Source: Coptis chinensis
Lineage: Eukaryota > Streptophyta > Magnoliopsida > Ranunculales > Ranunculaceae
Direction: 5' to 3'
NCBI GenBank assembly: GCA_015680905.1
Contig: CM027380.1
Location: 105,429,001-105,493,000 of the forward strand
DNA length: 64,000 nucleotides
Below the pieces are notes generated by a model, which was not told where the DNA came from, made no database searches, and saw nothing but the letters and a program-made list of their open reading frames with translations. This document shows positions 53,465 to 59,560 of the stretch, piece after piece. Position numbers and translations under genes: made by a program. Each line of letters starts with the position of its first letter. The first letter of the stretch is position 1.

Positions 53465-53760
53465 TCTCTATTAGTATAGTATACCATAATTAATATGGAC
53501 CTTTAAATTAGACTAACTTTTTTTCTACCATGAAATGCCCTTAATAAAAAATTAAAATCAATTATTTAATGCCTTTAAAAAAGACTATTTAGTCATTTCA
53601 AATTTTACTACCATTTATACCCTTAAGATTATATAGTAATCTAAAGATGTATGTGTAAATTCAAGTCGGAAATCAACTACACGCCACTATTCAATTGTAC
53701 GCTATTTATTTATTACTCATAAATAAATATAAATATAAATATAAATAATGGCTTTAATTA
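53465..53760 (+). mobile_element. Putative Helitron-type 5' end upstream of the captured exons
   Basis: Begins TCTCTATTAGTATAGTATAC after an A, resembling the TC-start of plant Helitrons, and continues as AT-rich sequence. No matching CTRR end with a 3' hairpin was found, so length and identity are open. Confidence 0.3.
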
Positions 53761-54743
53761 CCATAAATACAAATCCTTTATTCCTTTCTCTTTCCGTCTT
53801 CCTCTCCATCTCTCTCCATCTCTGCCCACTAAAAAAGAATCAAAAGGAAAAAAAGAAAATCAAAATCAAAATTTCTCCTCTTCAAAAACTCAGGTTCTAA
53901 TTTTCTGTACTCATCAAATTTTGATTTGTTAGTTCTCAAATGTTCAATAATTCTTTTGTGTCAAATCAGATTTTTATTGGATTGTTGGAGCATCGAGATG
54001 TAAGTTTAGTATATGTTCGTGGGAAGCACTTGACTTCCTGTTCTGAGATCATTTGGTGGAAGGTTCCTTGCATTTAGAAGAAAGCTTTTGTGCTGTAGTG
54101 GAGTAAAATTGTTATTCTTCACCGATTGAAAGATTGGAAATTATGTTGCAAAGGAAACCTTAAAAAAATTCGGTAACTTCCTTGATCAGAGAACATTGTC
54201 AAGCCTTATAATGAAGTTCATTTGTCATTTTTGGCTATGATGATTTACTAGCAATTTTCTGCAATTTTAGAACTGTTTCTGAGATAAAACGTTAATGTAC
54301 AACACGTATTATACAAAGTCAGAAATCATAAGCCCTGCCCATCCCACTTCCGTATATCGAGTTACAAACGAGATTAGTGTTGAGTAAATTACTGAATCAC
54401 TTTTTCATGAGATGGGTTTTTTTTTTGCATTATTTCCTTCGTGTGTTTGTAATTGACTTTTTTGGGTTTGTAGTATAATAGCTGATACCACACCATCGAC
54501 TGGAATCATTTCTTAAGTTTCTACATGTGGATGTTGTAATTCCTCTTAGCACAGAAACAATGTTCTACACGATAGAGATCAGACCCTAGCATGTTAGTAA
54601 AATTTAATTTGTCAATTGATTATTTTAGAATTTAAAATAGATACTAAGGGCAGTGTGGTCCTTTCTATCTTACAGAATCTTAAGTTTGAAGTGTGATTCA
54701 CATCTGACTGCTTACTGAAATTTCTTGGTCTTTGGTTCCACAG

Positions 54744-54937
54744 GTGCTGTTTTTGTTGTATGCCTGCTAATCACATACAGGTGTGTATACTTCTTCTTTA
54801 CCTTGCATTATTTTTTAATCTATGATAAACTGAGAGTTGAGGAAGTGATGTTCTCTTTGCTTTCAATTTTAAATCGCAGTTTATGGAGTTCGGCTATCAT
54901 TTTATTTGTCTTGGCAATGATGGTTGTGGATCTTATG
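54744..54937 (+). pseudogene. Two exons of an NPC1-type sterol transporter gene
   Basis: Exon a 54744-54780 (GAVFVVCLLITY...) and exon b 54880-54937 (LWSSAIILFVLAMMVVDLM) each have good AG acceptors and GT donors and join in phase (AG plus T gives Ser). Together they match a membrane segment of plant NPC1 (Niemann-Pick C1 family), in the C-terminal Patched-like region. All other NPC1 exons, dozens in the full gene, are absent. No stop or frameshift lies inside the two exons. It is an isolated fragment, not a working gene. Identification rests on my recall of the plant family. Confidence 0.7.
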
Positions 54938-55688
54938 GTAGGTTTAATTTCTCTAGCTATGTGCATCCTTCTATGCTTCTGTTTTAATTTTCGATGCCGA
55001 AACAACTGTTTTATGTCATATCTTGGCAATGCAACTCACACTTGTGTAAGTTAGAAATTTTAGTATGTTCATGATGGCTGGTACACACATTTGAGCCACA
55101 TTAATCGCCTAATGGGTTTCAGATCTTAAAGAAGCAGCATCTTATCACCAATTTCTCATCTTTAAATGCTACTGCTAAATATGCTAAACAATCTAGATCG
55201 GTTCTGATAGAGCACCTATGCTAAACAATACATATATATTAAACTAACTCATATATACATATATTTATAATTAATTTTAAAAATACCATATCTTACGATA
55301 CACGATACGATATGCAAAAAATGGAAAATGATATATTATGATTTGACAACGTACTATGCTCTCCTCCATTAAGTTCGTAAGATATAAGAAAATTTGGTGT
55401 GTCGCATGTTTTGTGCAATCTACCTTTTTGCTTTTCATTAAATTCACATCTTGATACATTTAATTTTTTTTTAGTTTTGTTTTCTCTTTGAGATATAAGT
55501 GACTTAATTTTCAAATCTAACCTCAAGGGTGCCAACTTTTGCCATAATAGAAAGTCACGACATTCCCAATTTGTGAAGGGTTCATTGTTCTATTTGTATA
55601 TGATCTCTGTCTTGGTTTCGAATGTTATTTATCTCTTTCTGTTTGATTATGGTGGACTATTCTAACAATTGACCTTTGCCTCTTGCAG

Positions 55689-55906
55689 CAAAGAACCTTA
55701 TACTTGCTGGCGTCAAATCTGAGACATTGCATGACGAAGGAACAGTGGAATTATGGGATTTGTCCAGCAATTTCATCTTCTCTGAGGTTGATGTGGGAAA
55801 GAATCGGGCACTGGCTTCTGTGCAGAAGCTTCAGGAACTGAATAACGCTATTTTAGTTTCCACCAATACAACCAAATTAACCAAGGAACTACTTTCCAAC
55901 TTTCAG
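55689..55906 (+). pseudogene. One exon of a ubiquitin-activating enzyme E1 (UBA1) gene
   Basis: 218 bases with AG acceptor (TCTTGCAG) and GT donor; the frame is fully open and encodes (A)[49 protein letters not shown] and TKELLSNFQ. This is the part of the N-terminal inactive adenylation domain just after the GxGxxG motif of E1, and its ends coincide with exon borders I expect in plant E1 genes. Neither the exon before (ending GLGAEI) nor the next (beginning with the VVFTDI segment) is found nearby. Substitutions such as SETLHD for SVTLHD suggest relaxed constraint. E1 activates ubiquitin with ATP; this fragment cannot. Confidence 0.85.
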
Positions 55907-56845: not shown

Positions 56846-59008
56846 AAGAAATGGTTGTGTACTAAATTTATAGCAAATCATATTGATGTTATGACTTATG
56901 AGTTTATTGGAACACACCGTCACTCACAATTTAATTACATTTGATTACTAGATCTGATTTTTTAGATTTATGTTCTCTGCTACACTTTAAGGTCGGCTAT
57001 AATAGCGCAAATGCTTGTGTTTGCCTCGGTCTATTTTGAGCTCACTTTTAGATTTCGAATCAAGGTTTTATAGAAAGTGAATTTTATGAAGTGGTGGAAA
57101 GCATTACTACAGGTGTAGCATATCTATATTCCGATAAAACAATGTTTGAGTAGCTTCTTTCCTCGGTCTCTAGCTTTCTTTTGATAGCTCAATTTGTTTA
57201 ACTGTTTCTTGAGCTCTCTGCTCATTTATCTTTGAATCTGTAGTGAATTGTATATCGATTATGTCTCCCGGACTCTAGGTGAAATGCCAACCGACTAGGA
57301 CCTCTTCATTATTATCAATTAATCGCCTAATGGGTTGAACTAAGGGTTCCAACTAATATGTGAATTTGAATCCAATAATAATACTTGAGAACCGAACTTG
57401 AATACAAGGCACTCAAGGTTTTTTCGATATGTGAATATTGCCATCATATAATATCATATTTAGGCCGCAATGTTTAACTAATAATACCTTTGAAGGCAGG
57501 GGTGTTGATGGTGGGATTTAAGACAAGCTAAAAAATGTGATTAATTGTTACTAATGCCATTACCTTTGGTCACGGGTAGCATGCATACAATTAGATCAAT
57601 GCTATGCACGTGCTCTATCGTCAAACAAATTATACTATACCAAATTTTAAATGCAATACCTTGACTAATTTTTTTCATTGTCTTATGAGTAGGAGATTTA
57701 CCATGGACAAGTGAACAACTTGTGGTATGCATACTAGCATAACCAAATGGTGTCGCTTTACACCGATTCTTTGAATTCTTTTTGCACATGGTACTAACAT
57801 GCATGTGACCTACTAACACTGATAAGAGAGTTTTTTTGGTTAATCAATTGGAATGGGTTGTCAATCAGTCCTGTCATACTAAGAGTTGTTAATTAGTATG
57901 AGTGAATTGGCTTGCATTTCAAGATTAGCTTGCATTTCTCTATTTTTAACAAGGGGATTAGTTTGAATTTCAACATTCTTTTACATGGATTCATGTACCA
58001 GCAAGGTACTTACTTGAACATAGGCTACTATACTTATTTCAGTTTAGGATCCAAAGTTTTTTGTACCATATATACTTGATAAACATTTTTTTTTTTCCAG
58101 TCGTCTTGGATTGAAAATCATTTCTAAGATAGAATGAACCAGATTGTATTATCATTCAAATTAATTTCAAAGGCGTGAACGGTAAGTATCTATCGGTTAT
58201 ATGGTTATATGCGCTTTTACAGTTCAAAATTTACTTATATTGTTTGTATGCAAAAAGGTAAAGGATTGTTGTAATTAAGTTGCAGCTTTGGTATCATGTC
58301 AAGTATAAGGTGGAGAGGTACAGTTCACTAGAATTGTCCTAGCACGTATGGCCAAGACTCATGGACTCTTAAAAGTAATCATTACAGGATTCCCAACAGA
58401 CAGTTGGTGACTCTTGCAGAGAAAGCTATTAGGTTGTCAAATATTGTTTTTAGAATTTAGAAGGAAAGAATCACTAGCTAATAGGTGTATTAACATGTTA
58501 CTTGGGGGAGGATCTTTGTGTGAACAATGGTCTCTTTCATTTTTTAGTGTATAATAATTATTCATACCTGTAAATTGCTATAATGGCTATCACAAGCCCC
58601 GACAAGTTTCAAGAGTAGTGATCACTCTGCTTTATGTTCTGATTATTTCTTCTAAGTATCAGATCCAATCATATCTCTCCTCTTTGGTTAGACTGTAAAG
58701 TAGCTAAGTCGTATCCACCTCCTCATGCCAACAAGACTTTCTTGCAGTGTATTCTATGACCAAATCAATCCTTTAGTTTTTTTCAGTTGTTAATATGCTC
58801 TTATTGTGGTTAGAAGGATAGGTTGGGTGCATGTACTTTTGCTTACAAACTGAAAGAATATAGGAGATGATTAATAGAACTGAATTGAAATCCAGTCAAT
58901 TACGTTTTTCTGTACTATTCTTAAGATTGTTTTTGCTAGACTATGCAGTAAATAATTAATTTACTTAATATGTGGTTGAGGGAAGTGACTTTTTTGTGTA
59001 TGTTGTAG
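56846..59008. other. Non-coding stretch between E1 and ABP1 fragments
   Basis: No exon of any recognised gene on either strand. A few short segments with splice-like edges (for example 58286-58309) are too small to assign. Confidence 0.4.
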
Positions 59009-59115
59009 GGATACCGATAGTAAGGAATATTAGTGAGCTCCCACAGAGTGACCATGGGAGCGAACGACTATCACACATGACAGTTGCAGGTTCTCTTCTA
59101 CATGGGATGAAAGAG
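59009..59115 (+). pseudogene. One exon of auxin-binding protein 1 (ABP1)
   Basis: 107 bases with AG acceptor (TTGTAG) and GT donor, encoding [16 protein letters not shown] and [16 protein letters not shown], which match the start of mature ABP1. The signal-peptide exon before it and the next exon, which would carry the Zn-binding TPIHRHSCEE box, are not found in the 3 kb before or the 4.9 kb after. It is therefore most likely an isolated captured exon. The alternative is a true ABP1 gene with very long introns running past the window edge. Confidence 0.8.
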
Positions 59116-59277
59116 GTTTGTGTTAATTCTTCGTAGAGTTAAGTTTTTGTCTGATTGGGTCTCATTTGACAAGCATATTGAAAGTAAGCAGCTCTGTGTA
59201 TAATATGAGTTATAAACTGAGGTATGCCAACTAAAAGTTTATCTCTAAAAACTGACATCTATAATTGAATCCTTTTT

Positions 59278-59560
59278 CACTACTACAGAATGACACATAT
59301 ACCACGGTCAATAAGAACGTTTATACCACGGTTCTTCCAAAAACCGTGGGAAATACTTATATACCACTGTGGAAATTTCTTTGGTCATTGGTTTACTAGT
59401 ATATGCCACAGTTACATGAAAACCGTGGGATAAGTTGGGCCATATACCATGGTTAGTTTTTTTTCAGCATGAGAGTACTCCACATCCCCACTACCTTAAA
59501 CATAAACAGTGGTATATAAATTTTCCACTTTCTACCGTGGTTTATGACTTCTTTATATCT
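59278..59560. mobile_element. CACTA-like transposon end with subterminal repeats
   Basis: Starts CACTACTACAGAATGACAC, like the terminal inverted repeats of plant En/Spm (CACTA) elements. It is followed by at least seven short repeats of ATACCACGGTT or its complement AACCGTGGGA in both orientations, typical of CACTA subterminal regions. The other end and a transposase were not found. Confidence 0.6.

Follow-up and report, generated by a model that had tools for sequence, protein, structure and literature searches.

Stepwise collection of NPC1, E1 and ABP1 gene fragments by a probable non-autonomous Helitron in Coptis chinensis, with a repair-like scar at the E1 junction

We analysed a 64,000-nucleotide stretch of the Coptis chinensis genome (contig CM027380.1, here C4:105429001-105493000; hereafter the window, with positions above 64000 lying beyond it), in which exons of the three gene families NPC1, E1 and ABP1 lie together on one strand within a candidate Helitron. 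The assembly searched comprised 935,630,033 bases in 116 contigs, and contigs C1-C9 are chromosome-sized (85-125 Mb). The copy of the element in the window is called W, and the sister copies named here are C1, C8a, C9, C4a, L027 (= C5b), L028 (= C1b), L029, L032 and L038. An earlier note on this DNA had proposed that a single mobile element carried the exons here, without deciding which. The features of the locus are as follows, with the evidence for each in brackets.

53465-54020, plus strand: Helitron 5' terminal module with an A|TC start; the first ~245 bp are the most widely shared and the rest includes a CT-rich stretch (at least 33 matches)
54021-54604, plus strand: second 5' module; 53459-54604 occurs in one piece in Helitron L032 (C5:9.0 Mb), 95% (DNA matches)
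54599-55083, plus strand: left part of the captured NPC1 piece; 94% to its donor at C4:31505769-31506245 on the minus strand (DNA alignment)
54744-54780, plus strand: NPC1 exon (open frame, splice borders, host-locus comparison)
54880-54937, plus strand: NPC1 exon, in phase with the one before (open frame, splice borders, joining test)
55084-55230, plus strand: filler between NPC1 and E1, 147 bp, including a dispersed-repeat part at 55130-55225 (DNA matches)
55100-55118, plus strand: 19-bp copy of the acceptor flank, a second copy of 57318-57336 (exact word match)
55231-57308, plus strand: captured E1 piece, inside the NPC1 piece; donor C8:80690439-80692506, 93% (DNA alignment)
55689-55906, plus strand: E1 exon (open frame, PF00899, PDB match)
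57306-57542, plus strand: captured NPC1 piece, right part, with a 3-bp TCA overlap with the E1 piece (DNA alignment)
57318-57336, plus strand: 19-bp acceptor-flank source of the filler copy (exact word match)
57543-58800, plus strand: linker that related copies share, with a dispersed repeat at 57651-58353 (DNA matches)
58801-59277, plus strand: captured ABP1 piece; donor C5:82086176-82087246; goes on at 66094-66675 (DNA alignment)
59009-59115, plus strand: ABP1 exon (open frame, ABP1 protein query, PDB match)
59278-64000, plus strand: apparently non-autonomous CACTA element in the ABP1 intron; the whole element spans 59278-66093 (termini, duplication, uninterrupted sister sites)

In each of the four exons one frame is open, and the borders are AG and GT. 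The E1 exon matched ubiquitin-activating E1 in the PDB (best of 30, 9qgg, E = 7.8e-17) and Pfam PF00899 (E = 9.2e-12). Together with the following ABP1 exon, which lies beyond the window, the ABP1 exon matched maize ABP1 (PDB 1lr5, E = 3.4e-31). For the 32-residue NPC1 exon pair no PDB match was found up to E = 1, and the pair was placed through its host locus (C4:31505494-31506567, minus strand), a 94% identical stretch flanked on either side by additional NPC1 exons in gene order. Within the pair the frames join in phase, while the NPC1-to-E1 and E1-to-ABP1 joins are out of phase; all three pieces are in sense orientation relative to the Helitron. These results agree with the earlier description of four exons from three families on one strand, two of them joining in phase. 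Its statement that the partner exons are missing stood in part. No other exon was found at 53001-73000 with plant protein segments of NPC1 (200 residues) and E1 (221 residues), a test that covers only the protein parts in these segments, and none but one at 1-73000 with a whole ABP1 protein; the exception is an additional ABP1 exon past the CACTA insertion. When the remaining exons were sought in order alongside, as the earlier note had asked in order to recognize normal genes, the ABP1 piece was found to stop inside the gene at 66675.

Alignment within the same genome, which had also been suggested, located three donor loci and several sister copies. A search with PF02460 (Patched) gave one locus, C4:31516271; the NPC1 donor stretch lies ~10 kb away. 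The E1 donor (C8:80690439-80692506, plus strand) is followed downstream by the next E1 exon (150 residues, 81% to a plant E1). The ABP1 donor (C5:82086176-82087246) is followed by later exons to the KDEL end; its first exon was not found within the 1 kb upstream examined. Since introns are kept in the captured pieces, capture took place at the DNA level. Two other loci were rejected as donors. The E1 gene at C7:91.54 Mb is only 76% identical and is therefore a paralogue. A diverged ABP1-like sequence at C7:41.34 Mb (C7:41344501-41346500, L066), outside the Helitron family, has an internal stop and is 79% identical to ABP1 donor positions 1044-2268, running past the right boundary of the captured piece and falling short of the left; it is probably a paralogous pseudogene and was used as an outgroup.

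We then considered the carrier. In a DNA search with 53200-54600 (742 first-look candidates, best 40 scored), 33 of the 48 non-self matches listed begin at 53455-53465, and the true count exceeds 33 because the best 40 of the 742 candidates were scored. The Helitron-like TC start suspected at 53465 is thus a repeated 5' end, shared by at least 33 non-self matches. The window reads A|TC there, and among 5' ends found in seven copies including the window, TC is present in six (TA in L038) and the preceding A in six (G in L032). A sister right end, paired with the same kind of left end, reads GCGTGCATAGCACGTGCATCTTGCTAG followed by T; among six sister 3' ends, CTAG is present in four, with GTAG in L028 and CTAC in C9, and the next base is T in all six. 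The last 37 bases before the sister 3' end were predicted to form a hairpin (z -1.63), but the fold alone is weak evidence because 15 of 200 shuffles fold equally well. For the C9 copy, a paralogous empty site was found in the repeat of L037; it shows no target-site duplication, with a few bases ambiguous in AT-rich sequence. The TC, A|T and 3'-hairpin features match Helitron hallmarks listed in the available parts of PMC4683698 and PMC4778049. Capture by one mobile element was borne out by recurring junctions, donor loci elsewhere and retained introns, and the termini together with borders recurring in the copies argue that this carrier is a Helitron.

The Helitron goes further than the end at 59560 assigned earlier: it resumes at 66094 with the next ABP1 exon and is homologous to related copies up to 66927. 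A dispersed repeat from ~66930 (L022:3930; 255 first-look candidates, best 40 scored) interrupts or truncates its 3' end. On the left, the CT-rich stretch at 53780-53890, previously read as leader-like, belongs to a 5' module found with the Helitron 5' end at eight other loci, and so gives no evidence for a dedicated leader. The L032 Helitron matches 53459-54604 at 95% and then runs into different sequence, and the NPC1 join at 54599-54604 trims the NPC1 piece of W 223 bp deeper than that of C8a. From this match and the deeper cut, W has the appearance of a chimaera formed from two Helitrons, by template switch or recombination. DNA searches found no source for 53709-54020, 54021-54604 or the non-repeat parts of 57543-58800. 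Short matches crossing the 54020/54021 join at C6:72892127-72892239 (53941-54055, 97%) and C7:8454011-8454097 (53967-54055, 96%) may point to where the 5' module came from.

Next, the captured pieces were compared across copies. The ABP1 boundaries agree in seven copies including W, that is, in six at other loci: donor positions 1000-2070 are present in C4a, C9, L027, L028 and L029, 1008-2070 in C1, and 1000-1462 plus 1460-2070 in W. The NPC1 piece lies upstream of ABP1 in C1, C8a and W, and only its right ~237 bp are present in C9 and C4a. E1 is present in W, C8a, C9 and C4a and absent from C1; besides W, the right E1/NPC1 junction was read in C8a and C9 and followed by continuous alignment in C4a. 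The C1 copy matches the NPC1 donor continuously, including 38 bp that are absent from W, C8a and C9. Because it retains these 38 bp, C1 is not an E1 loss, barring gene conversion. In an ABP1 tree rooted on the C7 ABP1-like paralogue, the Helitron copies group together (83), C1 branches first (96), and W pairs with C8a (100) and C9 with C4a (100). Kimura two-parameter distances to the donor were 0.049-0.065 for ABP1, 0.039-0.059 for E1 and 0.035-0.058 for NPC1; as these ranges overlap, the captures cannot be ordered by distance. The comparison argues that capture was stepwise, with the E1 and CACTA steps shown directly by copies in the older state.

Some sister copies carry further gene-like sequence. 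Upstream of NPC1, the C1 copy (C1:27365001-27378000, reversed stretch ~3993-5160) contains sense frames of a P-type ATPase (PF00122, E = 1.5e-10), which we take to be copper-type; these frames probably represent a further, fourth gene capture. C9 and C4a share a segment, some 2 kb to the left of E1, with antisense frames of up to 177 residues (in C9) and no Pfam match, possibly another captured fragment. Pfam was run on nine sister-copy frames and the W E1 exon; apart from the ATPase in C1, no frame of C9, L032 or C8a gave a match above the cut-off.

The junctions of the E1 piece were then examined at base level. On the right, CTCTTCA in the donor and CATCAGTATT in the acceptor correspond to CTCTTCAGTATT in C9 and CTCTTCATTATT in W and C8a, with a 3-bp overlap, TCA. 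The insertion replaced 38 bp of the NPC1 intron. On the left no short overlap was identified, and filler is present instead. Within this filler, 55100-55118 is an exact copy of 57318-57336, which starts 9 bp within the right flank. Allowing C or T at one position, the 19-bp word has eight exact occurrences genome-wide, two each in W and C8a and a single one in each of C1, C4a, C9 and the NPC1 donor; the control, the pattern reversed, occurs nowhere. At the variable position the NPC1 donor has C and the Helitron copies, including the filler, have T, which points to the Helitron-borne flank, not the gene, as the template of the filler, a later change in the donor being the alternative. The filler and the 638-bp flank in C1 have a longest common word of 19, and none of 1000 dinucleotide shuffles reached 19 (maximum 15, mode 8). 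This control replaces single-base shuffles against the donor flank, which were the wrong comparison for the 19-bp word.

Taken together, these data suggest that a non-autonomous Helitron very probably collected host DNA stepwise. One step would have brought the ABP1 piece (1,071 bp), carried by all seven copies compared including W, and another the NPC1 piece (~1,074 bp) upstream of it, which is uninterrupted in C1. The 2.07-kb E1 piece would then have been placed inside the NPC1 intron. In W, the left side would subsequently have come to consist of the 5' module of another Helitron, trimming NPC1 further, and finally the CACTA element would have landed in the ABP1 intron. The copies may have spread by rolling-circle transposition, as the termini and known Helitron biology suggest.

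For the E1 step, the scar fits break repair, as in the filler-DNA model, better than read-through of the 3' end. We consider it rather probable, with clearly less assurance than for stepwise collection itself, that the E1 junction is the footprint of serial template-switching repair in the Helitron. After a break within the element, repair synthesis would have copied 19 bp from the right flank, moved on to a dispersed repeat and from there to 2 kb of a gene on another chromosome, and closed at the 3-bp microhomology with loss of the 38 bp; we infer that an end-joining polymerase made the filler. If so, ordinary end-joining synthesis, and not the transposase, would be the capture agent in this Helitron family.

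Several observations weigh against this history. The 3' end of W itself, ~278 bp including hairpin and terminus, was sought as far as 73000 without success, the Helitron homology of W ends at 66927 with another dispersed repeat from ~66930, and a scan found no 5' end in the examined stretches of C8a, C1, L027 and L028. In the tree, the support for the Helitron-copy clade is 83 and the placement of C5b and C1b is weak (63). In the 4.2 kb examined in each of these two copies, ABP1 is present and neither NPC1 nor E1 is. Since C1, which has NPC1, branches before them, either NPC1 was lost in C5b and C1b or the node is wrong, and given this conflict either ABP1 or NPC1 may have come first. At the scar, the longest word shared by the filler and the NPC1 donor's own flank is 10, a length reached by 109 of 1000 shuffles, so that the argument for a templated copy rests on the Helitron-borne flank. 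No source was identified for the filler at 55084-55099 and 55119-55129, and the 3-bp overlap taken alone is weak.

The pieces might instead all have been gained by reading past the Helitron 3' end (end bypass, or read-through) and been rearranged later. Read-through was demonstrated experimentally for a reconstructed bat Helitron, according to the available text of PMC4778049, and the ABP1 piece adjoins the Helitron 3' region, which makes such an entry possible for ABP1. However, read-through adds sequence at the 3' end, whereas E1 lies within the NPC1 piece, where acceptor sequence is deleted and the filler bears a copy of the acceptor flank. As an account of all the pieces it is improbable.

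We regard it as very unlikely that the Helitron yields a functional chimaeric transcript or protein from these exons. All three fragments are sense to the Helitron with intact splice borders, and the E1 exon of W differs from the donor at 3 of 218 sites, compared with 112 of 1834 in the intron. The corresponding exon differences are 5/218 in C8a, 20/217 in C9 and 23/214 in C4a, the last two copies being decayed; selection on the captured E1 exon is not claimed because the donor side is itself constrained. By contrast, the reading frames of the gene pieces are out of phase and do not join, which rules out a fused frame across them. E1 is broken by gaps or stops in C9 and C4a and ABP1 is broken in C1; the ABP1 exons of W have 29 gap positions and diverge like introns (15/301 versus 38/738), and the CACTA insertion splits the unit. 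Judged from the sequences, no function of the fragments is indicated.

The third alternative is that a CACTA (Pack-CACTA-like) element made the capture. The end at 59278, earlier noted as CACTA-like, is a real terminus: the element at 59278-66093 (6,816 bp) has 19 perfect terminal bases, an inverted end at 66093 and a TTT duplication. It looks non-autonomous because its longest frames are short, with one frame of at least 80 residues listed in 59278-64000 (82 residues) and a longest stop-to-stop frame of 91 residues in the whole element. Its terminus adjoins the ABP1 exon, and gene fragments are known in CACTA elements (also in the available part of PMC3260210). However, the captured fragments are not between its terminal inverted repeats but all outside 59278-66093, and the ABP1 piece and the Helitron pick up again at 66094. 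Moreover, the site was read across uninterrupted in four sister copies and is continuous by alignment in L027 and L028. The uninterrupted sites rule out the CACTA element as the carrier, and we give this explanation hardly any credence; the element is best read as a separate passenger, inserted into the captured ABP1 intron after capture. Inside it, 59519-59667 and 61293-61436 form an 86% direct repeat. The sister copy C8a (C8:93091092-93098614) carries another CACTA-like insertion, in the linker upstream of ABP1, with ends CACTACACCATAA... and a TAT duplication; these ends are unlike those at 59278. Finally, normal long-intron genes or a segmental duplication of neighbours, which would account for the kept introns and intact exon borders, have a practically negligible probability and are ruled out by donor loci with further exons on three contigs (C4:31.5 Mb, C8:80.7 Mb and C5:82.1 Mb) and by the same chimaeric junctions at several loci.

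Here a single genome holds the donors, a copy that lacks the third piece and a scar resolved to the base, so that one step of capture can be followed directly together with the signature of its repair, and this signature can be sought in other Helitron families. According to the available part of PMC6544945, the uptake of host genes by Helitrons is far from clear, with end bypass and filler DNA as the models. Neither filler nor microhomology occurs in the available text of a 2026 review of plant gene capture (PMC13317346). No report of a copied acceptor flank was found in the literature, as partially covered, on Helitron capture with template switching, microhomology or filler DNA.

Stepwise capture by Helitrons is already published in maize and insects; the present family is a further case, with an unusually clear scar. 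The following comparisons refer to the available parts of the papers cited. Helraiser (PMC4778049), for which read-through capture is described, shares with the present element Helitron termini, an A|T target and captured host DNA; there, capture is at the 3' end by missed termination, whereas here it is inside the element. In Spodoptera frugiperda Hel1 (PMC6544945), acquisition is likewise internal and stepwise, with 2-13 bp end junctions, and the authors take this as supporting the filler-DNA model. The sources there are ~67-100 bp and no acceptor-flank copy is mentioned in the part available, whereas here a 2-kb gene piece is accompanied by a 19-bp copy. In maize Helitrons with gene fragments, stepwise capture was inferred from related elements (Dong et al. 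2011, PMC3288121). Those elements resemble the present one in TC...CTAG termini, several fragments in each, and a new piece inserted inside an older element; the present case differs in lying in another plant genome and in having three donors, a copy that lacks the third piece, a deletion in the acceptor and a junction scar, all resolved to the base.

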